Source: Desulfobulbus sp.
GTDB lineage: Bacteria; Desulfobacterota; Desulfobulbia; Desulfobulbales; Desulfobulbaceae
Direction of reading: 5' to 3'
Assembly (NCBI RefSeq): GCF_030824455.1
Contig: NZ_JAVBXR010000063.1
Location: 1 to 64,000 of the forward strand
Length of the DNA stretch: 64,000 nt
Positions 9,231 through 62,449 of this stretch are shown here, piece after piece; position 1 is the first letter of the stretch, and each line of letters begins with the position of its first letter. The translations under genes and the position numbers were made by a program. A model generated the notes under the pieces. The model searched no databases. It was not told where the DNA came from and worked only from the letters and a program-made list of their open reading frames with translations.

Positions 9231-9941
9231 TTACTTCTTCAGCATGTTCTTCAAATATTCAATCCATTGCTCAAACCCCTCGCCGGTGGTTGCCGAGAGC
9301 GAAAGGATCTGTAGGCCGGGCTTGAGCATTTGCGCCTCTTTCACGGCTTCTTCCACCGAGAAATCAAAATAGGGCAGCAGGTCGGTCTTGGTCAGCAGCA
9401 CCAGGTCGGCGCTGCGAAAGGTGGCTGGATACTTGGCCGGTTTGTCCGAACCTTCGGGGGTGGAGAGGAGCACAACCCGCCGATGCTCGCCCAGGTCAAA
9501 GGTGGCCGGGCAGACCAGGTTGCCGACGTTTTCGATGAAGATCAGGTCATAGCCGCCGCCCTTGGCAAAGTGCTCCAGTACGTGCAGGCCGCCGTGGACC
9601 ATGGGCGCGTCCAGGTGACAGGCGCCGCCGGTGGTCAGCTGCACTGCCGGCACGCCCTTGGCGCGGATGCGGTCGGCGTCGCGCTCGGTTTCGATGTCGC
9701 CTTCAATCACGCCAATCCGCACCGTGTCTTTCAAGGCCTCAATGGTCCGTTCCAGCAGGGTGGTTTTGCCGGAGCCGGGGCTGGAGATCAGATTGATCGC
9801 CAGGGCGCCCATCTGTTCGATATGGCCCCGGTTGGACTGAGCCTGTTTCTGGTTGGCTTCCAAAAGACTCCGGTTGACCTCAACCACCTTGGCGTCGTGG
9901 TGGTGATGGTCGTGCAGTTGACAGCCGCAGGTGTCGCACAT
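9231..9941 (-). CDS. hypB: Hydrogenase nickel incorporation GTPase HypB
   Basis: 236 aa from the ATG at 9941, chosen because it gives the family N-terminus MCDTCGCQ and is preceded by ATGGAG. The N-terminus carries the high-affinity metal motif CDTCGC and a short His run (DHHHH). The GTPase domain has P-loop SSPGSGKTT, a switch region with the Ni/Zn-site residues near GACHLDAPMVHGGL, and the specificity motif TKTDLLPY. HypB works with HypA to insert Ni(II) into the hydrogenase large subunit after the Fe(CN)2CO centre is built. It is the last gene of the hydrogenase train, 5 bp after hypA. Confidence 0.96.
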   Translation of the reverse strand: MCDTCGCQLHDHHHHDAKVVEVNRSLLEANQKQAQSNRGHIEQMGALAINLISSPGSGKTTLLERTIEALKDTVRIGVIEGDIETERDADRIRAKGVPAVQLTTGGACHLDAPMVHGGLHVLEHFAKGGGYDLIFIENVGNLVCPATFDLGEHRRVVLLSTPEGSDKPAKYPATFRSADLVLLTKTDLLPYFDFSVEEAVKEAQMLKPGLQILSLSATTGEGFEQWIEYLKNMLKK

Positions 9942-9946
9942 GGCAT

Positions 9947-10333
9947 TTACTCCATTTCTACTTGGTTGAGTATGAGTTCGGTCCCGCCTTTGGGGGAAAG
10001 CCGGTTGAGGCAGCACCAGGGACATTTCTTAGGGTAGTGGCTGGTCATGGCCAGTTCCAGCCGGTCGCTGGGAAGGGAAAAGGGAATGACCGAGACCTTG
10101 CCGCAGTCGAGACAGAGGTAGACCGGGTCCGGGGTTTCCAGTTCCAGCTCGGCCCCCCGGGCTATTTCCAGCGATTGCTTGAGGGCATTAAAGCCAAACT
10201 CAAAGGAATCGCGGACCACGCCGGAAAAGGGCCCCAGGGTGACCGACACCCGGTTGATGCGGACGGCGTGGTGTTCCTTGGCCAGATCGATCAGTTGGTC
10301 CAGCAGGCTCTGGGCCAGCGACAGTTCATGCAC
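9947..10333 (-). CDS. hypA: Hydrogenase nickel metallochaperone HypA
   Basis: 128 aa, starting with the conserved Ni-binding MHE (MHELSLAQSLL). A zinc ribbon is formed by CLDCG and CPWC, spaced as in HypA. It delivers nickel together with HypB to the large-subunit precursor. The gene lies between hypE and hypB, which is the usual functional grouping. Confidence 0.96.
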   Translation of the reverse strand: MHELSLAQSLLDQLIDLAKEHHAVRINRVSVTLGPFSGVVRDSFEFGFNALKQSLEIARGAELELETPDPVYLCLDCGKVSVIPFSLPSDRLELAMTSHYPKKCPWCCLNRLSPKGGTELILNQVEME

Positions 10334-15652: not shown

Positions 15653-17104
15653 TCAATGCCGCAGGGTGCGGATCGCATTTCCGCGGTGATCCACAAGGGT
15701 AACCGTCAATGGCAGCCCGCCGTCCAGGCGGTGCGTGGCGCAGGAAATTCACGGGTCATAGGCCCGGATGGCCATCTCGATCCGGTTGAGGATGGACTCG
15801 CTGACCTCGCCGTCGCAGATCAGGCTTGCGGCCGCCTGACGCACGCTCAGGTTCATCGGCGCGATGTTGTGGGTGGTGCCGACAATCAGGTTGGCGCGGG
15901 TGATGCACCCGTTGTCGTCGGTGCTGTAATCGTGAATCAGGGTTCCGCGTGGGGCCTCGACATGGCCAATGCCCCGGCCCGCCTTGGATTCGGCCGGGGT
16001 GCGCACCAGGGGGTCGGTGATCCGCTCGTCCGCCAGCAACTCCACGGTGCGTTCGCAGGCGTAGACCAGCTCAATCAGACGAGCCCAATGGTAGAGCAGG
16101 GTTCCCTGGGCCGGACGGCCGAATTGGGCGCGAAAGTCTTCCAGCTCGGCCTGGGCGCGGGGGGTGGCAACCTGATCGCAGACATTCAGCCGGGCCAAAG
16201 TGTTGACCCGGTACACGCCCATGGGGGCCGCCGGGTTCAGGGAAAATCCCTCGCCCCAGGATTTGGCGTAGACCATTTTGGCGTAGGACCAGGGCTCGAC
16301 CTGCTCGGCCAGATGGCGCTCGTAGTCGCTGGCCGGAAAATCGACCCAACTGCCGTCGGGACGCATCAGGCGCAGCAGGCCGTCGTAGAGGCGCAGATTG
16401 CCCTGCGCGTCGACCGCGCCAAGAAACCCGGTGGTGATTGCGCCCAGGGACTGCAGCTCTTCGCGGAAACGGCTAAACACCGAGCGCTTGGCGTAGTCCA
16501 GGGCAAAGGAGGCAAAGTCGAGCAAAACCAACGCGTCGGCCGCCAGCTCGCGCCGCTCGGTCTCAAGCATTGGTTTGGAAAACCCGCCCGCCACCCCGGC
16601 CACCGGGTGAATCGACTTGCCGGCAAAGCGCGCCAGCATGGCCTGCCCCAACTGCCGCATGCGCGCCACCCGGGCCGCCAGTTCCGGCTCCTGCCGCACC
16701 AGCCCCATGATGTTGCGCACCGAATAGTCGCCGTCCGGACCCAGCACAAAATCCGGGGCGGCGAGAAAAAAGAAATGGAGAATTTTATCGTGGATATGGG
16801 CAATTACCTGACAGAGTTCACGCAACAGCTGACCGGTTGGCGGTGGGACCGCGCCAAAGCAGCCGTCCACCGCCTTAACCGCGGCGAGATGGTGCATCCA
16901 GGGGCAGATGCCGCAGATGCGGCTGACAATGCGGGGAATTTCCTCGGCCGGCCGGCCAATCACGAACTGCTCAAAGCCGCGCAGAGCGGAGATGGCCACC
17001 CGGGCGTCGCTCACCCGGCCGGACTCGTCCAGATGGATGTCGACCCGGGCCTGGCCCTCAATGCGGGTGACTGGATGGATGCTGACAACCTGGGACTTGG
17101 GCAT
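15653..17104 (-). CDS. mvhA: [NiFeSe] hydrogenase large subunit, Mvh type, selenocysteine-containing
   Basis: Catalytic subunit of a cytosolic group 3c-like hydrogenase. The N-terminal Ni ligand motif is RICGICPWMHH. At the C-terminus the frame reads AYDP, then TGA (15749-15751), then ISCATH: exactly the DP-C-xx-C-xx-H motif with UGA in place of the first Cys codon. Reading UGA as Sec gives Sec452, Cys455 and His458, then a 25-residue extension (starting RLDGGLPL) to TGA at 15653-15655. That extension matches the peptide removed by a maturation protease after the conserved His. Ending at 452 would delete two Ni ligands, so read-through is needed for an active enzyme. Good Shine-Dalgarno (GAGGAG). 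The product should be 483 aa before processing. Confidence 0.9.
15717..15731 (-). promoter_or_regulatory. Candidate bacterial SECIS hairpin in mvhA
   Basis: In the mRNA, CCGCC-TGGAC-GGCGG forms a 5-bp GC stem with a 5-nt loop containing GG. The stem starts 17 nt and the loop 22 nt after the UGA. Bacterial SECIS elements lie within the coding region just 3' of UGA with a small apical loop containing G residues, so position and shape fit. SelB recognition is inference. Confidence 0.6.
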
Positions 17105-17144: not shown

Positions 17145-18083
17145 TCAATTGCTTTCCTTTCGATTACGGGCCGGCTTGAGCAGGCCGTGGCCGCCGCTGA
17201 ACCGAAGCAGGGATTTGCGGTCGACCAGACTGCGGTAGTCGATGCCGTTGCTGGCGAGTCCGTTCATCATGTCCAGCAGCTGATTGCCGCCTGGCCGAAC
17301 CGGCCCGTAGCAGCCGCGACAGGGGACGCGGGCCCGAATGCACAGCGGCGTTTCCCGGCCGCCGCAGCCGCCGGCGGTCACTGGTCCCATGCACAACAGT
17401 CCCTGCTCAAGCAGACAGCGCATCTGGTCGACCGGCTCTTCCGGATCATAGTCGGCGTTGGCAAGAAAGCGCCGCATTGTCCCCTGCCCTTTGCCCTGCC
17501 GGATCACCGGACAGGTTTCGCAGACGCTCTTGTGGGCCAGATCCGGAGATTCGCGCCGCAGCAGGGCCTCGATCACCTCCAGCATCATCTCGGGCCGGGG
17601 CGGACAGCCGGGCAGTGCGACGTCGACCGCCACCTGCTCGTCAACACTGTACACCCGGTCCAGCAGGGCCGGAACCTCGCCCGGCAGCAAGGCTTTTTCC
17701 GGAGAGCCGTAGGCAAACACCGTCTGCAGGGTTGCCTCGCTGGTCCACTGGTTGCGCAGGGCCGGGATGCCGCCGTGGGTAGCGCAGGTCCCCAGGCTGA
17801 TCAGGGTCCGGCACTGGGCGCGCATGGCCCGCGCCACCTGCAGTTGCTCCGTGTTGGCCACGCCGCCGGACACCAGGCCAATCTCAGCCTCGGGCAGGAT
17901 GATTTCCCCTTCCCCATCGGAGGCGCCGCTTAAAGGGTTTTGATACTTATGATCCATAAGCAGGGGAAAATGGACGATTTCCACCCGATCGAACAGGCCA
18001 AGCAACTGCTCGCCGCAATCCAACAGCGCCATCTCGCAGCCGGAACAGCCGTGCAGGCATTCAAAACTGAGCCGGGGCAGCAT
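17145..18083 (-). CDS. mvhG: Mvh-type hydrogenase small subunit
   Basis: 312 aa, starting MLPRLSFECLHGCSGCEMAL. This ATG is preceded by AAGGGCG and lies 11 bp after the mvhD stop. The frame stays open further upstream, but only as a shadow of mvhD and hdrA. Proximal-cluster ligands include CLHGCSGC, GTCATHGG and PGCPPRPE. Further Cys groups (CETC, CMGPVTAGGCGG, CRGCYG) suggest additional Fe-S clusters as in the MvhG family. It passes electrons from MvhA to MvhD/HdrA. No signal peptide, consistent with a cytosolic enzyme. Confidence 0.93.
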   Translation of the reverse strand: MLPRLSFECLHGCSGCEMALLDCGEQLLGLFDRVEIVHFPLLMDHKYQNPLSGASDGEGEIILPEAEIGLVSGGVANTEQLQVARAMRAQCRTLISLGTCATHGGIPALRNQWTSEATLQTVFAYGSPEKALLPGEVPALLDRVYSVDEQVAVDVALPGCPPRPEMMLEVIEALLRRESPDLAHKSVCETCPVIRQGKGQGTMRRFLANADYDPEEPVDQMRCLLEQGLLCMGPVTAGGCGGRETPLCIRARVPCRGCYGPVRPGGNQLLDMMNGLASNGIDYRSLVDRKSLLRFSGGHGLLKPARNRKESN

Positions 18084-18094
18084 GGATCGCCCTT

Positions 18095-18517
18095 TTACTC
18101 GCCAATCCCGGACGGGCTCGCATCGGTTTCCCGCAGGGACGCGAGGCGGGCGCTCATCTCGCGGAAAGCCTCGGCCAGCCGTTCGGGCTCGGCTGAAGAA
18201 ACCCAGGCAATGCGGAACCGCTCGCTCTCGTAGCCCAGGTCCTCCAGGGTGTCGGCGATCACCTCGGCCCGGGCCAGGGCCATTTCGTTGCCTCTGATGT
18301 AATGGCATTCGCCCAGGTGACAGCCGATGATCATTACTCCGTCGGCCCCCTTGTCGAGGGCGTGGATCACCATCTCCGGATGGACCATGCCCGAGCACAT
18401 CACCCGGATAATGCGGATCGAACCCGGATACTGCAGGCGGGAGATGCCGGCCAGATCGGCCGCCGCATACGAGCACCAGTTGCAGCAAAAGGCGATGATC
18501 TTGGCTTCGCGGCTCAT
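18095..18517 (-). CDS. mvhD: Methyl-viologen-reducing hydrogenase delta subunit (FlpD-like)
   Basis: 140 aa with the MvhD Cys pattern: CCNWCSYAAADLAG near the N-terminus, MCSGMV, and GCHLGECHY. It binds a [2Fe-2S] cluster and bridges the hydrogenase to HdrA. All cysteines are present as Cys codons (no UGA here). It starts inside the stop of hdrA (ATGA overlap), so the two are coupled. Confidence 0.95.
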   Translation of the reverse strand: MSREAKIIAFCCNWCSYAAADLAGISRLQYPGSIRIIRVMCSGMVHPEMVIHALDKGADGVMIIGCHLGECHYIRGNEMALARAEVIADTLEDLGYESERFRIAWVSSAEPERLAEAFREMSARLASLRETDASPSGIGE

Positions 18518-21500
18518 GCGTCCTCCTCAAGCACACAGCTCTGGTCCAGGGCCGCGTCAATCTGGGCTTCGATCTGGGCGTAGGTGAAGCCGGCCACGTC
18601 CACGCCCCGCTTCGGACAGGCCCCCTGGCAGATGCCGCATCCCTTGCACAACACCTGATCGACGTGCACGGTCTTGAGGGGATTGCCCTCGCCGTCCCGA
18701 TACTCGACCAGGGTGATCGCCTGATAGGGGCAGACGTCGATGCAGAGCCCGCAGCCGTCGCAGAGAACCGGATCAACCAGGGCGATGTTGGGCTCGAGGT
18801 TGATCTCCTTGCGGGCCAGGAGGCGTCCGGCCTTGGCGGCGGCGGCCAGAGCCTGGGAGATCGACTCCTCCAGCGGCTTGGGATAGTGGGCCAGCCCGGC
18901 GACAAAGACGCCGTCGACGTTGAACTCCACCGGCCGCAGCTTGACGTGGGCCTCCTGAAAAAAACCGTCGCTGTTGAGCGGCAGCTTGAACAGGGTGGCC
19001 AGATCCCCGGCCTCGGGGCTGGCCAGGGTGGCGGCGGCCAGGATAACCACATCGGCCCGAATTTCCAGGGGGCGATGGAGCACATGATCCCAAACCTCCA
19101 CCAGCACACCGTTGTCGGCCTTTTTGATCCGGGGCGGGCCGTGCATCTCGTAGTTGATGAACACAATGCCCAACTCCCGCGCCTGGTTGTAGATTCGTTC
19201 GCGCTGACCGTAGGTGCGGATCTCGCGATACAGGATGTAGATCTGGCGCGACGGCGCCTCCTTTTTCAGCTTGATGGCGCTCTGAATCGAATGGGTGCAG
19301 CAGGATTTCGAGCAGTAGGGTCGCTCCTGGTTGCGCGAACCCACGCACTGGATGAACACGAACGATTTACCGTTGGCCACCCGAGTTTCGTTGTGCATGT
19401 GCAGCTTGTCAAACTCAATCGAGGCCACCACCTTGGGAATTTTGCCGTACTCGAATTCCTCGGGGATATAGCGCTTGGCCCCGGTGGTGATAATCACCGC
19501 GCCGTGTTCAATCACCCGCTTGCGGTTGGCCCCGGTGCGAATGGTGGTAACGAAATTGCCCACATGGCCGCTGACCGCCAGCACCGTGCTGGTGTAGGCC
19601 ACCTCGATCAGCGGGTGCTGCTGCACCTCCTCCTTCAAGCCCTTGAGGTAGCGCGGCACATGCTCGCCGTTCCAGGTCTGGAAGAGATGGAGGGCGTTGC
19701 CGCCCAATTGGGTGGTCTTTTCAACCAAATGAATCTGAAACCCCTGCTGGGCCAGATTGAGCGCCGCGGTCATCCCGGCCACACCGCCGCCAATGACCAG
19801 CACCGAGGGCGCGATCGGGATGCGCAGCGGCTTGCGCGCCGTCAGGCTGCTCACCTTGGCCACCGCCATCCGGATCAGATCCTTGGCTTTGGCTGTGGCC
19901 ACCTCGGGCTGCTGGTTGTGGACCCAGGCGTTCTGATTGCGGATGTTGGCCATCTCAATCAGGTATTCGTTAATCCCGGCCGATTTGAGGGTTTTGCGAA
20001 ACAGCGGCTCATGGGTGCGGGGGGTGCAAGCGGCGATCACAATCCGGTTGAGGCCCTTGTCGCGAATCTCCTGCACCAGCAGGTCCTGAGTGTCCTGGGC
20101 GCAGGTGAACAGGTTGCGGGCCACATGCGCCACCTGCGGCAGGGTGGCGGCATAGGCGGCCACCTCCTCGACGTCGACCACCCCGGCAATGTTGGTGCCG
20201 CAATGGCAGACAAAAACGCCGATGCGCGGGGTCTGGCGGCGAACGTCCAGTTCCGGAGGCGGCGGCAGGGTGCGAGTGAGGGTGTGCCGGGCCGGGGCGA
20301 GCAGGGCTGAGACGCTGGCCGCCGCCGCCGAACCGCCGATCACCGACTGGGGGATGTCGCGCGGGCCGTTGAAAGCCCCGCAGGTGAACACGCCTCGCTT
20401 CGAGGTGTGCACCGGCATAAAGGCCGAGATCGAGGCAAAGCGGTCCGGAGTCATGTGGATGCCGATCTTCTCCGCCAGCTTGACCATCGAATCAGGGGTT
20501 TCCAGGCCCACCGACAGCACCACCAAGTCAACGGTCTCCTCGACCTGTTTGCCCTGGACGCTGATGTAGTGCAGGCGCAGATCGCCCTTGGTTCCCTTGG
20601 GCTCGACCCCGTGGATGCGCGAGCGAACGAACCGCACCCCGTATTCGTTTTTGGCCCGTTCAAAGTAGCGGTCAAATTCCTTGCCTGGGGTGCGCATGTC
20701 CATGTAAAAAATGGCGACGTCCAGTTCCGGATTGGCCTCTTTGACCGTCATCGCCTCCTTGATCGCGTACATGCAGCAGACCGCCGAACAGTATTCGTTG
20801 TTGCAGCGGTTCTTGTCGCGGCTGCCGATGCACTGGAGAAAGGCGATCCGCTTCACCGGTTTGCGGTCTGAGGGGCGGGTCAGCAGGCCGTCGGTGGGGC
20901 CGTTTGGCGACAGGTAGCGCTCGAACTGGAGCGAGGTGATCACGTTGGGATAGACCCCGTAGCCCCAGACCTTGGCCTTGGACGGATCAAAGGTCTGGAA
21001 GCCAAGCGCCATAACCACCGCGCCGATCTTGATTTCGTGATCCCGTTCCCGGTCGTTGAAGTTGATCGCCCCGGGCGGGCAGATCTCGGCGCAGACGCCG
21101 CATTTGTCCGGATTCTTCAGACGCAGGCAGGCCTGGGGGTCGATCTGGTACTTGAGCGGCACGGCCTGGGGATACTTGATGTAAATGGCCTTGCGTTTGG
21201 CAATGTTGGAGTTGAAGGAATCGTCGACGCTTTTAGGGCAACTGCCGCTGCACTGGCCGCAGGCGATGCACTTGGTCACATCGACATAACGGGGATATTC
21301 GCGCACCCGCACGGTGAAATTGCCCGCCCGGCCGGCAACGTCAAGCACGGTCGACAGGGTCATGATGCGGATATTGGGGTGCCGGCCGCATTCCACCAGT
21401 TTGGGGGCAATGATGCACATCGAGCAGTCGTTGGTGGGAAAGACCTTGTTGTACTGGGGCATGGCCCCGCCGATGGCCCCGGTTTTTTCCACCAGATAAA

Positions 21501-21597
21501 CGTAGTAGCCCGAATCGGCGAGGTCCAGGGCCGCCTGCATTCCGGAAATGCCGCCGCCCACCACCAGCGCCGCCCCGATTGTGGTCTGTTCAGCCAT
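18514..21597 (-). CDS. hdrA: HdrA-like flavin/Fe-S electron-bifurcation subunit, long form
   Basis: 1027 aa, longer than the ~650-aa methanogen HdrA. It carries two FAD-binding halves: VVGGGISGMQAALDLADSGY at the N-terminus and VIGGGVAGMTAALNLAQQGF near residue 600. After the first FAD motif comes the HdrA Cys cluster (NDCSMCIIAPKLVECGRHPN); then ferredoxin-type clusters (CIACGQCSGSCPKS; CGVCAEICPPG); a CHCGTNIAG segment; and two C-terminal [4Fe-4S] motifs (CDGCGLCIDVCP, CKGCGICQGACP). It should split hydrogenase electrons between ferredoxin and a higher-potential acceptor through HdrBC, by analogy with Mvh-Hdr. It overlaps the HdrBC gene by 8 bp and mvhD by 4 bp. Confidence 0.93.
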   Translation of the reverse strand: MAEQTTIGAALVVGGGISGMQAALDLADSGYYVYLVEKTGAIGGAMPQYNKVFPTNDCSMCIIAPKLVECGRHPNIRIMTLSTVLDVAGRAGNFTVRVREYPRYVDVTKCIACGQCSGSCPKSVDDSFNSNIAKRKAIYIKYPQAVPLKYQIDPQACLRLKNPDKCGVCAEICPPGAINFNDRERDHEIKIGAVVMALGFQTFDPSKAKVWGYGVYPNVITSLQFERYLSPNGPTDGLLTRPSDRKPVKRIAFLQCIGSRDKNRCNNEYCSAVCCMYAIKEAMTVKEANPELDVAIFYMDMRTPGKEFDRYFERAKNEYGVRFVRSRIHGVEPKGTKGDLRLHYISVQGKQVEETVDLVVLSVGLETPDSMVKLAEKIGIHMTPDRFASISAFMPVHTSKRGVFTCGAFNGPRDIPQSVIGGSAAAASVSALLAPARHTLTRTLPPPPELDVRRQTPRIGVFVCHCGTNIAGVVDVEEVAAYAATLPQVAHVARNLFTCAQDTQDLLVQEIRDKGLNRIVIAACTPRTHEPLFRKTLKSAGINEYLIEMANIRNQNAWVHNQQPEVATAKAKDLIRMAVAKVSSLTARKPLRIPIAPSVLVIGGGVAGMTAALNLAQQGFQIHLVEKTTQLGGNALHLFQTWNGEHVPRYLKGLKEEVQQHPLIEVAYTSTVLAVSGHVGNFVTTIRTGANRKRVIEHGAVIITTGAKRYIPEEFEYGKIPKVVASIEFDKLHMHNETRVANGKSFVFIQCVGSRNQERPYCSKSCCTHSIQSAIKLKKEAPSRQIYILYREIRTYGQRERIYNQARELGIVFINYEMHGPPRIKKADNGVLVEVWDHVLHRPLEIRADVVILAAATLASPEAGDLATLFKLPLNSDGFFQEAHVKLRPVEFNVDGVFVAGLAHYPKPLEESISQALAAAAKAGRLLARKEINLEPNIALVDPVLCDGCGLCIDVCPYQAITLVEYRDGEGNPLKTVHVDQVLCKGCGICQGACPKRGVDVAGFTYAQIEAQIDAALDQSCVLEEDA

Positions 21598-23068
21598 GCC
21601 GAACCTCCCCGCCGCCCTGCGGCGCCATGACCAGGGAATTGGCCACCAACTCCCACAAAAATTGCACCTCGATGTTGAGGTTGAATTCGCGATTGAGCGA
21701 GGTCTGCAGCTGATCGCGGCAGTTCTGGCAGGAGGTGACCACCAGTTTGGCCCCGGATTCGCTGATCTGGCGGGCCTTGATCCGGCCGTGAAAAACCCGC
21801 TCAGCCCAGAACGGGCTGGCCCAGGCCCCGCCGCCGGCCCCGCAGCAGTAGTTCTCTTCCCGGTCCGGCGCCAGGTCGACGTACTGCGGGCAGCAGGCGC
21901 GGGTCAAGGCGCGCGGTTCGTCGAAATAGCCGTGGCCAAAGGTTTTCAGCGACTTGCGGCCGTAATTGCAGGAGTCGTGGAAGGTGGCTAGTCGGGTGTG
22001 AACGCTCGGGTCCAGGGTGATTCGCCCTTCGGCAAGGTATTCAAGCAGCAGGTCAAACACCGTGTAAACCTTGAACTGCTGCAGGGATTCGGGAAACCAG
22101 CGCTCCAGGGCGTAGCGGGTGGCGTAGTAGGCGTGTCCGCACTCGGGCAGGAGCAGGGCCTTGCAGTTGAGCCGCTCGATGTTGTCGATGATCCGCTTGA
22201 CAATGGTGCGCATGGCGCTGTAATCGCCGGAGTGCAGCCCCCAGTTGACGCCCTCCCAGTACTCGGAGGAGATGGTCCAGGACTCGCCGGCGGCGTGAAA
22301 GATCTTCCACCACCATTTGAGGCTGTCGGGTTCGGCAAAGGGCTGCTTGGAGTTGACGGTCACCAGCATCCGGGCCCCGCGCACGTCAATCGGGGTGGCA
22401 AAGCCTGGACAGGAAGAGCCGGCCAGTTCTTCGCCCAACTCTTTCAGCAGGATGAGGAAATCGTCTTTGGGGATGCCCAGATTGTTGCCCTTTTCCAGGC
22501 AGGTGACCACCCCCTTTTGGATCGCCGGCGGCACCTTGTCGCGCTCCCGGCGGGAACGGATGCGCCGCATCAGCTGCAGGATCTCGACGTTCATCGGGCA
22601 GACCACCTCGCACTTGCCGCACATGGTGCACTTCCACGGCCAGTCGCTCTCCACCAGCTCCTCGTCCAGGCCGAGAAAGGCCATCCGCACGATTTTGCGC
22701 GGGTCCAGATCGTCGACCCCGGAGATTGGGCAGGCCCCGGCGCAGGAGCCGCAGGCGAGACAGACGTCGGCCAGGGCGGGCGCGGTGTAGAGCGGGTTGA
22801 CCTTGGCCTCAAGCCGCACCGCAGCCGGGACGGCGCCGTTGCTTCTTGGCGCCGGGGCCGCTTCGCCGACTGTGGCCGGGTCCGGCCCGATGCGCGGTTC
22901 GCGGCCGTACTTGTCGCACAGCCGTTTGTAATCCTCCCACTGAATCAGGTAACGGCGGCCCGGACCCTCCTGGGCCGGGAGCACGCCGGAATTGATCCAG
23001 TTGCGGATGGTGTTGCGATGGACCCCGAATTCTTCGGCCAAATCATTGACCTTGGCCTCATAGATCAT
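21590..23068 (-). CDS. HTH-fused HdrC/HdrB-like iron-sulfur protein
   Basis: 492 aa, an unusual fusion. Residues 1-55 form a MerR/excisionase-type HTH (VNDLAEEFGVHRNTIRNWIN). Residues about 100-160 hold two HdrC-like [4Fe-4S] motifs (CLACGSCAGACP, CTMCGKCEVVCP). The C-terminal half is HdrB/HdrD-like with one intact CCG cysteine-rich domain (HDSC, NYCCGAGGG, SCQNC). A degenerate first copy (LLPECGHAYY) has Glu replacing a Cys. It would receive electrons from HdrA and reduce a disulfide-type acceptor; the real acceptor (for example a DsrC-like protein) is not shown. Its start overlaps the protease stop by 4 bp. Confidence 0.85.
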   Translation of the reverse strand: MIYEAKVNDLAEEFGVHRNTIRNWINSGVLPAQEGPGRRYLIQWEDYKRLCDKYGREPRIGPDPATVGEAAPAPRSNGAVPAAVRLEAKVNPLYTAPALADVCLACGSCAGACPISGVDDLDPRKIVRMAFLGLDEELVESDWPWKCTMCGKCEVVCPMNVEILQLMRRIRSRRERDKVPPAIQKGVVTCLEKGNNLGIPKDDFLILLKELGEELAGSSCPGFATPIDVRGARMLVTVNSKQPFAEPDSLKWWWKIFHAAGESWTISSEYWEGVNWGLHSGDYSAMRTIVKRIIDNIERLNCKALLLPECGHAYYATRYALERWFPESLQQFKVYTVFDLLLEYLAEGRITLDPSVHTRLATFHDSCNYGRKSLKTFGHGYFDEPRALTRACCPQYVDLAPDREENYCCGAGGGAWASPFWAERVFHGRIKARQISESGAKLVVTSCQNCRDQLQTSLNREFNLNIEVQFLWELVANSLVMAPQGGGEVRHG

Positions 23069-23649
23069 GGCGTGGTTGCCTCCACAGTGGTCGCGGTGGT
23101 AAAAGAAACGGCGTGCGGCGCACTCATTCGCGCAATCAGCTGCGTAATCCGCGCCGAGGCCTCAAGGACCGCAGCACGCATCAGCGGCGACAGGCCCGGC
23201 GCCACCTGCTCGGGCAGTGCCGCGGTCTGGGCGAGCAGCAGCACCACCTCAATCCCGGTTTCCGCCTGAAGCTCGGCCAACAGATTGACCGTGGGAAACT
23301 GGTGCAGGGAAAAATCGTGGATCTTGGCCGCCGGCAACTCCGCCGGCCCGCATTGCCGCACCTGGCCGGGCTGGCCGCCTTCAATGTTGCCGGCGTCGAC
23401 CACAATCAACATCTGCGGCCGCAGCGACGGCAGCATCAGATAATCAAGCAGGTGTTCGCGGATGGATGTGCCGACGTCCAGCGCCAGCACCGACGACGGC
23501 AGCTCGGATTGGAGCAACTGCTCGATAACCGCCGGCCCGAAACCGTCGTCGCCGAGCAGGACGTTGCCGCAGCCGAAAACGGCCACGGTCGGCGGCCCAG
23601 CCAAGGATTGCGTGTTGTGCGAGATATGCATATTGTGGCAACATGCCAT
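23065..23649 (-). CDS. Hydrogenase maturation protease (HyaD/FrhD family, M52)
   Basis: 194 aa. Core motifs are VFGCGNVLLGDDGFGPAVIE (Asp is a nickel-sensing ligand), a central VVDAGN and the His in KIHDFSLHQFPT. M52 peptidases clip the C-terminal peptide of the large subunit after Ni insertion. Here the substrate is presumably MvhA, cut after His458. It is first in the hydrogenase gene train, preceded by AAGGGGCG, and shares a 116-bp divergent intergenic region with the PAS-LuxR gene. Confidence 0.92.
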   Translation of the reverse strand: MACCHNMHISHNTQSLAGPPTVAVFGCGNVLLGDDGFGPAVIEQLLQSELPSSVLALDVGTSIREHLLDYLMLPSLRPQMLIVVDAGNIEGGQPGQVRQCGPAELPAAKIHDFSLHQFPTVNLLAELQAETGIEVVLLLAQTAALPEQVAPGLSPLMRAAVLEASARITQLIARMSAPHAVSFTTATTVEATTP

Positions 23650-57566: not shown

Positions 57567-58022
57567 ATGTCTGAACAATTCCCCCTGGAAACCATTCTTG
57601 CCAACTTTGGCCGAGAGCGAGACAATCTCATTCCGCTGCTGCAGGAAGTGCAGGAGCGGTTTCATTATCTCTCCCCCGAGGCGGTGCAAGCGGTTGCCGA
57701 CCATCTGGAACTCTCCGAAAACGACGTCTACGGCGTGGCCACCTTTTACGCCCAGTTCCGCTTTGTGCCGCCCGGCCTGCACCACATCAAGGTGTGCGAG
57801 GGCACGGCATGCCATGTGCGCGGCAGCGACCGGATTCTGGACGCGATTAGCCGCTCGACCGGCCTGAAACCAGGCCAGACCAGCGACGACGGCGCCTTCA
57901 GCCTGGAGCGGGTGGCCTGTTTCGGTTCCTGCGCCCTGGCCCCGGTGGTGGTGGTGGACGACAAGGTCTATGGCCGGATGACCGCCGCCAAAACCAACAA
58001 GCTCATTGAGGACAAGAAATGA
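57567..58022 (+). CDS. NuoE/HndA-like [2Fe-2S] subunit
   Basis: 151 aa thioredoxin-like ferredoxin. Cluster ligands are C-x4-C in KVCEGTACHVRG and C-x3-C in ACFGSCAL. Subunit of an NAD(P)H-oxidising flavoprotein complex; it precedes and overlaps the NuoF-like gene by 4 bp. The upstream in-frame extension is not protein-like. Confidence 0.92.
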   Translation: MSEQFPLETILANFGRERDNLIPLLQEVQERFHYLSPEAVQAVADHLELSENDVYGVATFYAQFRFVPPGLHHIKVCEGTACHVRGSDRILDAISRSTGLKPGQTSDDGAFSLERVACFGSCALAPVVVVDDKVYGRMTAAKTNKLIEDKK

Positions 58023-59872
58023 GTTTCGCAGCGCGACAACAACAGGCCGAGGCCGCTTGGCAGACCTTTGAGCAGCCGGACCGGCTGCGCATCCTCGTTG
58101 GTTCGGCCACCTGCGGACGGGCGGCGGGATCGCTTGAGGTGATGCAGGCGTTTGCCGACGAACTGGCCAAACATGGTTTGACCGAGGCCGCCGACATGGT
58201 TGAGGTGGGCTGTCTGGGCATGTGCTACGCCGAGGTGATGGTGGAGATTCGCGGCCGGGACGGCAAGCGAGTGCTCTATCAGGGCGTGGAACCCCGACAC
58301 GCGGCCGCCCTGATCGAGACGCAACTGGTGCGCGGCGAGGTTTATCTGCCGCTGGCCTTGGCGGTAATGACCGGCGTCGACGAAGCGGTTCCGACTTTTG
58401 CCGAGCTGCCGATGATCAAGCCCCAGGTGAGGATTGTGTTGCGCAACTGCGGGATCATCGACCCGACCAACATCGACCATTATCTGGCGCGCGGCGGCTA
58501 CCAGGGCATGACCCGCGCCTTTGCCATGGGCCCGGATCAGGTGATCGAGGAGATGAAAGCCTCGGGCCTGCGTGGGCGCGGCGGCGCAGGGTTTCCCACC
58601 GGGGTGAAGTGGGGTTTTGCCCGCAATTCGGTGGCTGATCAGAAATACGTGATCTGCAACGCCGACGAGGGCGATCCCGGGGCCTTCATGGACCGCTCGG
58701 TGCTGGAAGGCGATCCTCATGCGGTGCTCGAAGGTTTGCTGATCGCTGGCTACGCCATTGGCGCGAGCATCGGTTATGTTTACTGCCGGGCTGAATATCC
58801 CTTGGCTATCGAGCGGTTACAGGGAGCCATCACCCAGATGCACGAACTGGGTTTTCTTGGTGGCGATATTCTCGGCTCGGGCTTTGGATTTGAGATCAAG
58901 ATAAAAAAAGGCGCGGGCGCCTTTGTCTGTGGCGAAGAGACCTCACTGATGCAAAGCATTGAGGGCAAGCGCGGCATGCCGCTCTCCAAGCCGCCTTTTC
59001 CCGCTGTTTCCGGCCTGTTCGGCAAGCCGACCAACATCAACAATGTCGAGACCCTGGCGGCGGTGTCGGCGATCATGGAAAAGGGCGCGGCCTGGTATGC
59101 AGGCTACGGCACGGAAAAAAGCCGGGGCACCAAGACCTTTGCCCTGGCCGGCAAGATCAGCCGCACCGGCCTGATTGAGGTGCCCATGGGCATCAGCCTG
59201 CGCACCATCATCAACGAGATCGGCGGCGGCGTGCTCGACGGCAAGCAGTTCAAGGCGGTGCAGACCGGCGGCCCCTCGGGCGGCTGCATTCCGGCCCAGT
59301 TCATCGATCTGGCGGTTGATTACGAGCGCTTGGCCGAGGTTGGCTCGATCATGGGTTCCGGCGGCATGATCGTGATCGACGAGGAATCCTGCATGGTCGA
59401 CATGGCCCGCTACTTCCTCAGCTTCACCGAAAACGAGAGCTGCGGCAAATGCGTGCCCTGCCGCATGGGCACCCAGCATCTGCTTCGGATGCTCACCACC
59501 ATCACCGAAGGTCGGGGCACGCTTGAGCAGCTGGATATTATGCGCAAGATCGGCGACGCCATGAAAAACGCCTCGCTCTGCGGCCTGGGCCAGACGGCGG
59601 CTAATCCGGTGCTGACCACGCTCCAGTATTTCGAGGACGAATACCGGGCCCACATTGTCGACAAAAAATGTCCGGCCGGAGCCTGCCGGGCCCTGATCCG
59701 CTTCGACATTGATCCCGCCCGCTGCACCGGCTGCGGGGCCTGTCTGCGCGCCTGTCCGGTTGCGGCGATCAGCGGCGAGAAAAAACAGCCGCACGCAATT
59801 GATCAGGAGCTCTGCATCCAGTGCGGTTCCTGTCGTCAGGCCTGCAAATTTGCGGCGGTGCTGGTCGACTGA
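58019..59872 (+). CDS. NuoF/HndC-like NAD(P)H-oxidising flavoprotein with ferredoxin tail
   Basis: 617 aa. N-terminal thioredoxin-like [2Fe-2S] domain (about 20-115; GSATCGRAAG and GCLGMCYA); FMN/NADH domain (LRGRGGAGFPTGVKWGF, CNADEGDPGAFMDRSVLEGD); SLBB; N3-type [4Fe-4S] (ESCGKCVPCRMG); and two C-terminal [4Fe-4S] motifs (CTGCGACLRACP, CIQCGSCRQACK). This is the layout of bifurcating hydrogenase and formate dehydrogenase beta subunits. It should link NAD(H) to the iron-sulfur relay of the next gene product. Confidence 0.93.
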   Translation: MSFAARQQQAEAAWQTFEQPDRLRILVGSATCGRAAGSLEVMQAFADELAKHGLTEAADMVEVGCLGMCYAEVMVEIRGRDGKRVLYQGVEPRHAAALIETQLVRGEVYLPLALAVMTGVDEAVPTFAELPMIKPQVRIVLRNCGIIDPTNIDHYLARGGYQGMTRAFAMGPDQVIEEMKASGLRGRGGAGFPTGVKWGFARNSVADQKYVICNADEGDPGAFMDRSVLEGDPHAVLEGLLIAGYAIGASIGYVYCRAEYPLAIERLQGAITQMHELGFLGGDILGSGFGFEIKIKKGAGAFVCGEETSLMQSIEGKRGMPLSKPPFPAVSGLFGKPTNINNVETLAAVSAIMEKGAAWYAGYGTEKSRGTKTFALAGKISRTGLIEVPMGISLRTIINEIGGGVLDGKQFKAVQTGGPSGGCIPAQFIDLAVDYERLAEVGSIMGSGGMIVIDEESCMVDMARYFLSFTENESCGKCVPCRMGTQHLLRMLTTITEGRGTLEQLDIMRKIGDAMKNASLCGLGQTAANPVLTTLQYFEDEYRAHIVDKKCPAGACRALIRFDIDPARCTGCGACLRACPVAAISGEKKQPHAIDQELCIQCGSCRQACKFAAVLVD

Positions 59873-59935
59873 CCACCGGCGAATCAAGCGATACCGAGCC
59901 CCAGGAGCCAACGGTTTATTTATCAAGGAGATTAC

Positions 59936-62449
59936 ATGGGCAGCATCAGTTTGACCATTGACGGCCAACAGGTCGAGGTCGAAGAAGGCGCAACGGTCCT
60001 CCAGGCCGCACGCAAGGCGGACATCGTTATTCCCACCATCTGCGACCACAAGGACCTCAATCCCTATGGGGCCTGCCGGATGTGCATCGTCGAGATCGCC
60101 GGCGTGCGCGGCTTTCCCACCTCCTGCACCACCCCGGCCGCTCCGGGGATGCAGGTCGTCACCCAGTCGGCGCGGCTGACCGAACTCCGCAACCGCACCC
60201 TGGAGCTGATGTTTTCCGGGCATCCCAACAGCTGCCTGGTCTGCATCCACCGCGAGGCCTGCGAGCAGTACCGGCCCAAGGTCACCAAGGCGGCGCGTTC
60301 CACCCGCTGCGGCTTCTGCGCCAACCGCGACGAATGCGATCTGCGGACCATGGCCCTGAGCGCGGGCAAGAATGAACTGAGCCTGCCCACCCTGTACGCG
60401 TCCTACAATCTGGAACGCGACGATCCTTTCATGGATCGCGACTACAACCTCTGCGTGCTCTGCGGCAAGTGCTGGCGGATTTGCGAAAAGATTCACGGCA
60501 AACCGGCAATTTCAATCATCAACCGGGGCAAATGGGCGCGGATCGGCACGGCCTTTGACAAAAGCCACGTCTTTTCCGGCTGCACCTTCTGCGGCGGCTG
60601 CATCGACATCTGCCCCACCGGCACCCTGACCGACCGCTTTGCCCGCTGGCAGGGCAAGCCGGAGGCCGACACGCCCTCTGCCTGCATTCTCTGTTCCGAA
60701 GGCTGTTCGGTTGTCGCCCAGAGCAAAGGCGGCCAGCTGCTGGCCTACACCATGACCGGGTTCAACAAGGAGGCCGGGCTGTGCGCCCTGGGCCGTTTTG
60801 GCGCCGCCCAGATCGCGGCGTCCAACCAACGCCTGATCCGGCCCCTGGTCCGGGAAGGCGAGGATCTGATTCCCTTTGACTGGCAGGGCGCGATTGCCGC
60901 GGCCGCCGAAGGGTTAAAGGATTGCGCCGGCGGTGTTGTTCTGGTGATCAGCGCTGCGACCTCGCGCGAAGACCGTTTTCTGTACGTGCAATTGGCCGAG
61001 CAGCTGCAAGGCCGGATGCTGCTTCTGCCCGCAGAGGCAGGCGAAGACGACCCGCAGGTGCAGGCCCTGGCCGCAGCGGTGCAAGGCGGAACCATCCGCG
61101 CCGTGATTGCCAACGGCAACCTATTGCCAGTGGAGATGATGGCAAAGGTCCCCTTTTCTCTGATTATCGATTGTTTGCACTCCCCTGCTTCCAGCGGCGC
61201 CAGCGTGGTGCTGCCCGCAGCGGTCCTGAGCGAATCGGGCGGCACCTTCCGCACCGCAACCGGCGCAATCAAACAACTGGCGGTCAGCAGCCAGGCCCCC
61301 GGCGACGCCCTGCCGGAATGGCGGATTGTCTGCGATCTCGCCCAGGCCCTTGGCCTGACGGGTTTTGACTTTGAGCGCGTGGAGGCCGTCACCCCGCTGG
61401 TCGCGGACGATCCTGCGCCGGCGCCGGTCAGCGGCGATCCGCGCCAGAACGTCCGCGATCTGATTCCCCGCTTTCGCGGTCATCTCCTGGCCGACGTCGT
61501 GTCTGCGCTTGCCGCCTTTGGCCTGCCAACCACTCCGGCGGAGACCAGTGAGGAGACCACAGGCGTAGGTTTTCCCATCCTCGAAAAACGGGAAATCGCC
61601 CCCAACATGCATTTCTTCAAGGTCAAAGCCGAGAAGGTGGCCCAATTCTCCCTGCCCGGCCAGTTCGTCATTCTCATGGCCAAGGAAACTTCGGAGCGTT
61701 CGCCCTTTACCCTGGTGGACTGGGATGCGGCCGAGGGCACCATTTCGCTGGTGATCGAAGAGGTGGGTCGTTCCAGCCGCGAACTGGCGTCGCTGAAGGC
61801 GGGCGATAGGATCGCCCATGTCAGCGGCCCCCTTGGCCTACCCCTGACCATCGAAAACAAGGGCACTGTGCTGCTCGGCGGCGGTTGTTACGGCATCGGC
61901 GCCATTTTCCCCCTGGCCCGGGCCCTGCGTCAGGCCGGCAACCGGGTGATCTGCGCCATTGAGGCCTCGTCCGCCTATCTGCTCTACATGCAAAAGGAAC
62001 TGGCCACGGCCTGCGATCAGCTGATCATCGCCACCAAGGACGGCTCCGAAGGCGTGCGCGGCGGCATTCAGGAGGTGTTGGCCCAGGTTGCAGCCCAGGA
62101 GCCGGTCGACCAGTTCATTGCCGTTGGCTGCACCTTCATGATGCGCATGGTCACCGAAATCAGCCGCACCTTGAACATTCCCACTCTGGTGGCCCTCAAC
62201 CCGATCATGGTCGACGGCACCGGGATGTGCGGCGCCTGCCGCGTTTCCGTGGGCGACAAGACCCGCTTTGCCTGCATCGACGGCCCGATTTTTGACGGCC
62301 ACGGCGTTGACTGGGACGAACTGGCCTCGCGGCGCAGCGCCTATGCTCGCGAGGAGGTTCAGGCCCTGTCGCAGAGCGTGGATCTGAATGCGCTCATGCA
62401 CCAGCCCCATGCCCAGAGCCACGGCGGCGGATGCGGTTGCGGCCGATAG
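59936..62449 (+). CDS. Fusion of NuoG-like Fe-S protein and NfnA/SudB-type FAD/NAD(P) reductase
   Basis: 837 aa. Residues 1-80: [2Fe-2S] with Cys36, 47, 50, 64. His96/Cys100/Cys103/Cys109: His-ligated [4Fe-4S]. Cys125/128/134 are extra. Then two ferredoxin clusters (Cys173-183, Cys216-226) and a Cys250/253/257/283 cluster at the start of a shortened NuoG-like, molybdenum-free domain (about 260-510). Residues about 545-837 form a complete NfnA-like module: FAD-binding SPFTLVDWD, NAD-binding GTVLLGGGCYGIG, and [2Fe-2S] in MCGACRVSVGDKTRFAC. It ends with a Cys/Gly tail (GGGCGCGR). Strong Shine-Dalgarno. It should connect the NuoEF module to NfnB; the acceptor is unknown. Confidence 0.88.
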   Translation: MGSISLTIDGQQVEVEEGATVLQAARKADIVIPTICDHKDLNPYGACRMCIVEIAGVRGFPTSCTTPAAPGMQVVTQSARLTELRNRTLELMFSGHPNSCLVCIHREACEQYRPKVTKAARSTRCGFCANRDECDLRTMALSAGKNELSLPTLYASYNLERDDPFMDRDYNLCVLCGKCWRICEKIHGKPAISIINRGKWARIGTAFDKSHVFSGCTFCGGCIDICPTGTLTDRFARWQGKPEADTPSACILCSEGCSVVAQSKGGQLLAYTMTGFNKEAGLCALGRFGAAQIAASNQRLIRPLVREGEDLIPFDWQGAIAAAAEGLKDCAGGVVLVISAATSREDRFLYVQLAEQLQGRMLLLPAEAGEDDPQVQALAAAVQGGTIRAVIANGNLLPVEMMAKVPFSLIIDCLHSPASSGASVVLPAAVLSESGGTFRTATGAIKQLAVSSQAPGDALPEWRIVCDLAQALGLTGFDFERVEAVTPLVADDPAPAPVSGDPRQNVRDLIPRFRGHLLADVVSALAAFGLPTTPAETSEETTGVGFPILEKREIAPNMHFFKVKAEKVAQFSLPGQFVILMAKETSERSPFTLVDWDAAEGTISLVIEEVGRSSRELASLKAGDRIAHVSGPLGLPLTIENKGTVLLGGGCYGIGAIFPLARALRQAGNRVICAIEASSAYLLYMQKELATACDQLIIATKDGSEGVRGGIQEVLAQVAAQEPVDQFIAVGCTFMMRMVTEISRTLNIPTLVALNPIMVDGTGMCGACRVSVGDKTRFACIDGPIFDGHGVDWDELASRRSAYAREEVQALSQSVDLNALMHQPHAQSHGGGCGCGR

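Follow-up and report, generated by a model that had tools for sequence, protein, structure and literature searches.

Does the UGA codon that lies in frame near the end of a hydrogenase gene of Desulfobulbus sp. end the protein, or is it read as selenocysteine (Sec)? The gene is mvhA, for the large subunit of an F420-non-reducing (Mvh/Vhu-type) hydrogenase, on the minus strand (17104..15653) of positions 1 to 64,000 of contig NZ_JAVBXR010000063.1 (assembly GCF_030824455.1); this whole stretch of 64,000 nucleotides (nt) is the window referred to below. A table-11 gene call stops at position 15749 and gives 451 amino acids (aa), whereas reading through the UGA at codon 452 (15751..15749, minus strand) gives 483 with Sec452. 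From the sequence data we are highly confident that UGA-452 is read as Sec in an HdrA-linked, group 3c-type [NiFeSe] hydrogenase, and that a hairpin downstream of the codon acts as the SelB signal.

Direct reading and translation of the window place codon 452 in the context RAYDP-UGA-ISCATH, followed by RLDGG; the frame DP-UGA-ISCATH given in a preliminary description of this DNA is right. The read-through segment comprises 31 codons (15656..15748, minus strand): ISCATH, which holds the second cysteine (Cys) ligand C455 and H458, and then 25 codons of a predicted cleaved tail, up to a terminal UGA stop (15655..15653, minus strand) that lies 32 codons past the Sec UGA. The preliminary description was right about these 25 codons and had put the loss in an automated gene call at 31 residues; it is in fact 32, the Sec and 31 more. 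Together with the N-terminal Ni/Fe ligand motif CGIC (residues 64-67; 16904..16915, minus strand), the predicted ligands are C64, C67, U452 and C455, and the full-length protein shows the CxxC...(U/C)xxC arrangement with DP before it and a His, H458, after it. Stopping at the UGA removes both C-terminal Ni ligands and read-through restores the DPUxxCxxH motif, as had been claimed; the ligand positions were read directly and aligned to the solved Mvh large subunit of a methanogen (PDB 5odc). In this alignment (E 1.4e-108, 366.9 bits, residues 7-460) residue 452 is paired with the first Cys of DPCLSCATH, the first C-terminal Cys ligand in 5odc. The protein also matches PF00374 with 118 bits (cut-off 25.8), the archaeal equivalog NF041785 (VhuA) with 433.8 bits over residues 7-428 (curated cut-off 800) and NF041786 (VhuU) with 41 bits (cut-off 70). 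By this full-length family match the window mvhA encodes a large subunit of the Mvh/Vhu type, very probably that of a [NiFeSe] hydrogenase.

The relatives of the gene tell whether the codon is a stop. We assembled the best 80 of 152 relatives and the 30 loci returned by a search of the phylum (297 genomes, matches in 99), 110 loci with the host included, 102 of them distinct; these are the loci nearest to the query, and their conservation describes this branch of the family. All 110 loci, named isolates and complete genomes among them, carry UGA at the position of codon 452. One of them is the mvhA of Ca. Desulfobulbus rimicarensis, in which mvhADG adjoins hdr and Sec is not named in the portion of the text covered (PMC7117923). 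In the 102 distinct rows the terminal stop is TGA in 43, TAA in 32 and TAG in 27, and codon 452 is never TAA or TAG; since it stays fixed as TGA while the terminal stop varies, codon 452 is not a plain stop. Among the 36 genomes nearest to the host, the host included, all 17 mvhA matches contain one TGA, a count for which the position was not read in each match. A true stop at UGA-452, with a 451-aa product and a downstream match that is a mere relic, is what the standard code would give, and three homologues of another family (L134, L137 and L138) do exist without C-terminal ligands. Yet such a stop would cost the enzyme both C-terminal Ni ligands, and the downstream frame is kept in all 110 loci under purifying selection, which makes a true stop very improbable. 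An error of sequencing or assembly that turned TGC or TGT into TGA was the other way in which the claim might have failed. The genome is a draft assembly in 127 contigs, but the recurrence of the UGA in every locus read leaves this explanation more improbable still.

The host is equipped to decode UGA as Sec. Its genome (4.03 Mb, 127 contigs, 92% complete) holds selA (617 bits), selB (361.6 bits) and selD (364.2 bits), each over its cut-off, and a tRNA-Sec (selC) with 72.1 bits against a gathering score of 47, a UCA anticodon and G73. In 14 control genomes weak matches also occurred, but those over the cut-off amounted to 5 for tRNA-Sec, 2 for selB, 1 for selA and 2 for selD. On this gene content the host is a Sec-decoding genome. 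Its selD (L018, G000:C101) has one in-frame UGA of its own, in a UxxK motif (UAAK), and the host SelD is therefore probably itself a selenoprotein. A general reassignment of UGA to an amino acid would be in keeping with the second UCA tRNA of this genome, which is described below; against it, UGA also serves as a real stop, as 8 of the 17 window genes checked end in it and mvhA does so too, 32 codons on. Reassignment is about as remote as a sequencing error. Because neither the search for the machinery nor the search for an error overturned it, the reading of UGA-452 as Sec is supported.

A bacterial selenocysteine insertion sequence (bSECIS) should then follow the codon, and the preliminary description had pointed to a GC hairpin of 5 base pairs (bp) with a small G-containing loop, 17 nt after the UGA. 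The hairpin is where it was said to be: CCGCC UGGAC GGCGG (15731..15717, minus strand) occupies +18..+32 after the UGA, with 17 nt between and a loop that starts 22 nt after the UGA. Published bSECIS limits ask for a stem of 4-16 bp, a loop of 3-9 nt with G as its first or second base, a distance of 16-37 nt between UGA and loop, and a minimum free energy of -7.5 kcal/mol or lower (PMC13188914). The window hairpin lies within all of them, with 5 bp, a 5-nt loop, G at loop position 2 and -8.1 kcal/mol when folded alone. What did not stand was an unusual fold of the single sequence: single-sequence folding was rejected as SECIS evidence, with z near 0 for long stretches, and with the amino acids of the window held fixed the five pairs form in 46% of synonymous versions. 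The hairpin rises above chance because of the comparison across rows, not because of the fold of any one sequence.

This comparison is clear. Each of the 102 distinct rows keeps all five pairs, with 510 of 510 cells paired, around a loop that reads UGGAU in 79 rows and UGGAC in 23. In 6 rows pair (20,30) is A-U and not G-C, through a change of Arg to His (CGC to CAC) coupled with one of Gly GGC to GGT; pair (18,32) changes from C-G to U-A in 8 rows and pair (19,31) shows a two-sided change in 1. Compensatory changes are thus found at three of the five pairs, with no broken cell. When the 3' side is slid by 1-3 positions, 102-413 of the 510 cells are paired. When synonymous codons are redrawn from those of each gene, all five pairs are expected in 29.3 of the 102 rows, against 102 observed, and the codons concerned are strongly skewed: Leu CTG in 102 of 102 (about 45 expected), Arg CGC in 89 of 94 (30.5) and Gly GGC in 96 of 102 (47.9). 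Among 34 Cys homologues the full set of five never occurs (four pairs in 5, three in 8, two in 13, one in 5 and none in 3). After any codon of these genes, the same register gives five pairs at 278 of 44164 places, 92 of which also have a G as first or second loop base. In the tree, the hairpin with A-U appears at two separate places (L042/L044/L087 and L096).

The position of the hairpin relative to the protein is informative as well. M52 proteases cut hydrogenase large subunits after the His of the C-terminal motif. By this maturation rule the predicted pro-peptide is RLDGGLPLTVTLVDHRGNAIRTLRH (15656..15730, minus strand), to be removed after H458. The hairpin opens with the third base of the H458 codon and has its remaining 14 bases, of 15, in this stretch; the RNA signal thus lies almost wholly in a predicted disposable pro-peptide. 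Cleavage of the C-terminus in hydrogenase maturation has been described (PMC12134894). The tail is 29-37 aa long in the 102 distinct Sec rows, which read RLDGG at the site of the hairpin in 86 cases, RLDGD in 8, HLDGG in 6 and CLDGG or CLDGR in 2, whereas Cys rows read ALDGK, NIDGS, SLPGQ, AVGQM and others. We infer from these patterns that the RLDGG motif is kept by the RNA and not by the protein. In 17 pairs of rows (hand-picked; 19 were named, and two involved rows dropped as duplicates) the ratio of nonsynonymous to synonymous differences per site (pN/pS) is 0.24 for codons +12..+29, as in ordinary selection on a protein, and 0.17 over the 40 codons that precede the UGA. At codons +1..+11 the same pairs differ in no amino acid and little at synonymous sites, with pS 0.28 and 0.14 compared with 0.44 upstream. 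As an observation apart, the Cys-type MvhA of L136 (G140), L147 (G142) and L148 (G295) stop right after DPCxxCxTH and so would need no cleavage of a tail, which all 102 distinct Sec rows have.

If these elements work together as their arrangement suggests, SelB with Sec-tRNA-Sec would bind the hairpin 18-32 nt downstream and insert Sec at UGA-452, giving the Ni ligand set C64, C67, Sec452 and C455. The Hyp proteins would then insert nickel, after which the M52 protease encoded in the same train would cleave after H458 and remove the 25-residue tail that carries the RNA signal. The mature Mvh unit would take electrons from H2 and pass them via MvhD to HdrA, where bifurcation is possible.

Several observations weigh against this interpretation. 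The matches of MvhA, VhuU, MvhG and HdrA all lie below the curated NCBIfam cut-offs of archaeal models. Longer stretches of the window around the hairpin fold no better than chance (z 0.17, 0.46, 0.12 and -0.99 for four stretches), and the A-U version of some relatives, at -7.3 kcal/mol, falls just short of the -7.5 limit. The null model for codon use and pairing ignores relatedness, and the row counts are not independent. In this null the hairpin codons +6..+10 reach z 8.8-18.7, but codons far from the hairpin exceed expectation too (z 6.9 at -32, 5.1 at -31 and 8.6 at -10), as do those just before the UGA (Asp -2, z 13.5; Pro -1, z 7.2), for which the hairpin gives no explanation. A longer base of the SECIS, an effect of codon context or plain relatedness are possible reasons for the bias before the UGA. 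L146, a UGA row outside the 102 that is 41.6% identical and sits on a long branch, keeps two of the five pairs in this register. Finally, a second UCA tRNA of the host could compete at codon 452. Beside these points we also note that over codons -6 to -1 (15752..15769 in the window) Asp GAC is used in 89 of 102 rows against 54 expected.

This second tRNA (L002; G000:C90:117942-118036, minus strand) scores 58.1 bits in the tRNA-Sec search. It has U73, the discriminator base of tRNA-Cys, and not G73, 8 of 8 acceptor pairs, a 4-bp T-stem (the 8/4 shape), a long variable arm and a sequence unlike tRNA-Sec; counting the two host matches as copies of one tRNA-Sec was therefore rejected, as they are two different tRNAs. 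At E 1e-9, 10 of the 36 near genomes have two matches and 2 only the second type. Leaving out L002, these genomes give 11 tRNAs of this type (L222-L232), all with UCA, U73 and the 8/4 shape, with 8 of 8 acceptor pairs in ten and 7 in one. Ten genomes of the genus, the host included, share its acceptor start GACUGG, and two of the nine others are single-contig assemblies; in G432 and G436, from other families of the order, the second-type tRNA shows the pair A1:U72 and, in the T-stem, an unpaired A. Candidates without G73 are held not to be working tRNA-Sec (PMC5330540), and selC* tRNA-Cys with U73, in some cases with UCA, have been described in Proteobacteria (PMC7609411). L002 shares the 8/4 shape, the long variable arm and U73 with the latter and differs from them in its G1:C72 pair and in its T-stem, where the unpaired A51a bulge was not seen; no second selB over the cut-off accompanies it.

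It is conceivable that UGA-452 is decoded in two ways, as Sec by tRNA-Sec and SelB and also as Cys by L002, for example when selenium is short, so that one gene would give both a [NiFeSe] and a [NiFe] enzyme. The features of L002, its occurrence in nine other genomes of the genus, the selC* precedent and the Cys that homologues have at this position all speak for such a possibility. Against it, mvhA with one TGA is present where no second tRNA reached E 1e-9, as in the single-contig genome G420, and within the genus no clear link is seen: the one-TGA mvhA occurs in 9 of the 10 genomes that have the second tRNA and in 7 of the 13 that do not, some of these genomes being incomplete. One selB and no second was found over the cut-off, two open reading frames (ORFs) searched beside L002 are neither selB nor cysS, and the missing bulge also counts. 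We regard dual decoding as unlikely; going by its occurrence, the second tRNA is not needed for the Sec-type mvhA but could add Cys at the same codon.

The genes around mvhA fit a Mvh/Hdr-type unit. The gene train, on the minus strand, begins with the M52-type hydrogenase maturation protease (23649..23065; TIGR00072 103.4 bits, cut-off 47.45; PF01750 53.2 bits, cut-off 23), whose presence in the same train had been noted. It continues with an HdrC/HdrB-like iron-sulfur protein that has an N-terminal helix-turn-helix domain (21590..23068; PF13183, PF02754 and PF12728 over their cut-offs), a 1027-aa HdrA-type flavoprotein with Cys in NDCSMC (18514..21597; NF040770 979.4 bits, cut-off 1100), the electron-transfer subunit MvhD (FlpD) with Cys in CNWCSY (18095..18517; PF02662 173.7 bits, cut-off 22.3) and the hydrogenase small subunit MvhG (17145..18098, start codon not settled; NF045875 VhuG 178.4 bits, cut-off 450; PF01058 97.8 bits, cut-off 27). 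Given an operon with MvhG, MvhD and an HdrA-type partner, the enzyme would on sequence grounds be of group 3c type (Mvh/Hdr-linked). Downstream of mvhA lie an 84-aa ORF with no family match and then hyp genes: hypA, hypE, hypD, hypC and hypF, the five named by eye, between mvhA and hypB, the nickel insertion GTPase (9231..10025, minus strand; TIGR00073 276.5 bits, cut-off 121.2). The setting recurs among relatives: 60 of the 80 fetched loci include about 6 kb upstream, and MvhG is present in 59 of these loci, MvhD in 56 and HdrA in 56. The helix-turn-helix of the HdrC/HdrB-like protein is of the excisionase/MerR type; 58 of the 80 loci have a homologue, 19 of them with a match that extends as far as the first 12 residues, and many are truncated where the fetched DNA stops.

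As further selenoproteins of the window, MvhD and HdrA were considered and rejected, since both have Cys. The HdrA of the relatives' loci (L022-L101) has Sec in 47 of 80 and Cys in 12, with the motif not seen in 21; the nearest loci with the Cys type are L022, L023, L024, L027, L028, L029, L031 and L088. Sec versions of MvhD have already been published, according to a review. No second Sec gene was found in the window among the TGA-bridged frames of at least 250 aa that were listed, four of which were searched in Pfam, a search that was not exhaustive. A candidate read-through gene at 58019..62449 on the plus strand was likewise dismissed: it consists of NuoF-like and NuoG-like neighbours in one frame with a UGA stop between them.

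The distribution of Sec among MvhA homologues is uneven. Of the 40 further rows fetched from the search of the phylum, 34 carry a C-terminal motif with Cys (and three of these an N-terminal UGA), 2 have UGA there (L146, L171), 3 have no ligands (L134, L137, L138) and 1 ends in DPCLSCATM (L135). In a midpoint-rooted tree of 82 rows, made of these 40 and 42 of the 110 Sec loci, 38 Sec rows group together, the long-branch L146 included, while six other Sec rows (L128; L127, L129, L171; L130, L131) lie across the root with Cys and ligand-less rows. Because the Sec rows are scattered in this way, Sec was lost, gained or both. The host itself also holds two distant Cys paralogues, L152 and L153. The ligand-less homologues L134 (G188), L137 (G136) and L138 (G038) end in RAYNP, RAYAP or RAYNPSFQD; the N-terminal CxxC is kept in L134 and L137 and has Ser for the second Cys in L138, and sister to these is the Sec-type row L128. 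Judged by their sequences, they seem to be large subunits that have lost or are losing the metal site.

A different position of the UGA was met among the loci fetched from searches of 297, 395 and 30 genomes, which are neither a full count nor a reading of every UGA position. In four genomes the N-terminal CGxC has UGA in place of its second Cys (CGVU), and the C-terminal motif has Cys: G028 (L149/L172), G065 (L150/L173) and G405 (L204), all of one genus, and G192 (L142/L187) of another family. selB is over the cut-off in all four, and selA is present in the three tested (G028, G065 and G192). The codons GCC TCG NNN AAG GCC follow the N-terminal UGA in all four and give a GGCC..GGCC hairpin at +18, which folds alone at -8.4 kcal/mol; in G192 a different fold is favoured when a longer stretch is taken. 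Among 19 Cys rows set beside these four, the same codons occur in the near-identical paralogues L206 and L207 alone. G028 and G065 also carry a Cys copy that is 96-98% identical, and in the order of G192 (17 genomes) no other copy of that gene with an N-terminal UGA was found among those read. The second Cys of the N-terminal CGxC is the residue that we take to bridge Ni and Fe in solved hydrogenases. The CGVU MvhA is a candidate [NiFeSe] hydrogenase with Sec at this bridging ligand and a strong side lead of the sequence comparison; we recognised no report of Sec at the N-terminal CGxC of MvhA in the portions of the literature searched, and in the part of the review table covered UxxC alone is given for MvhA.

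Sec in MvhA has already been published, and the window mvhA is another member of this group. In Methanococcus the Sec is on a separate small subunit, VhuU, and the periplasmic [NiFeSe] hydrogenase has Sec at the same ligand as the window protein. The large subunit of the latter (PDB 5jsu and others) matches at residues 6-461 with E 1.2e-37 and differs in being periplasmic and in its score, 133 bits as against 366.9 for the MvhA of 5odc. The methanogen Mvh-Hdr complex of 5odc is another parallel, with MvhG, MvhD and HdrA-type partners beside the window gene; it has Cys where the window has Sec, and the HdrC/B-like partner in the window has a helix-turn-helix domain. MvhA/VhuA/VhuU with UxxC is listed as a selenoprotein family of sulfate reducers and methanogens, with Sec at the same site as in the window, the first Cys of the C-terminal CxxC (PMC13188914). 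The Sec family of MvhA is listed elsewhere too (PMC9312934), as is the methylviologen-reducing hydrogenase (PMC1088965), and a Sec MvhA is named in a marine deltaproteobacterium (PMC8318568). Archaeal SECIS elements lie in 3' untranslated regions (PMC1088965), whereas in the window the signal is part of the coding sequence for one polypeptide, in the tail predicted to be cleaved off. In Desulfobacterium autotrophicum, MvhA2DG with HdrA1 is presented as a selenocysteine-containing hydrogenase of the cytoplasm, in a cluster with hdrA; in the portion of that text covered Sec is named in the mvhD and hdrA genes and not explicitly in MvhA2 (PMC2702500), while the window has Sec in MvhA and Cys in MvhD and HdrA.

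For annotation, the consequence is that an H2 enzyme of sulfate-reducing bacteria would lose two metal ligands in a standard gene call. The window locus offers a clean covarying bacterial SECIS within a predicted disposable pro-peptide, and such a placement would explain why Sec versions have an RLDGG-like tail that is absent from the Cys versions read. The CGVU relatives, if confirmed, would have selenium at a ligand other than the one given in the papers covered. Should the second UCA tRNA also serve codon 452, this species would allow the exchange of Sec and Cys at one metal ligand to be studied in nature.

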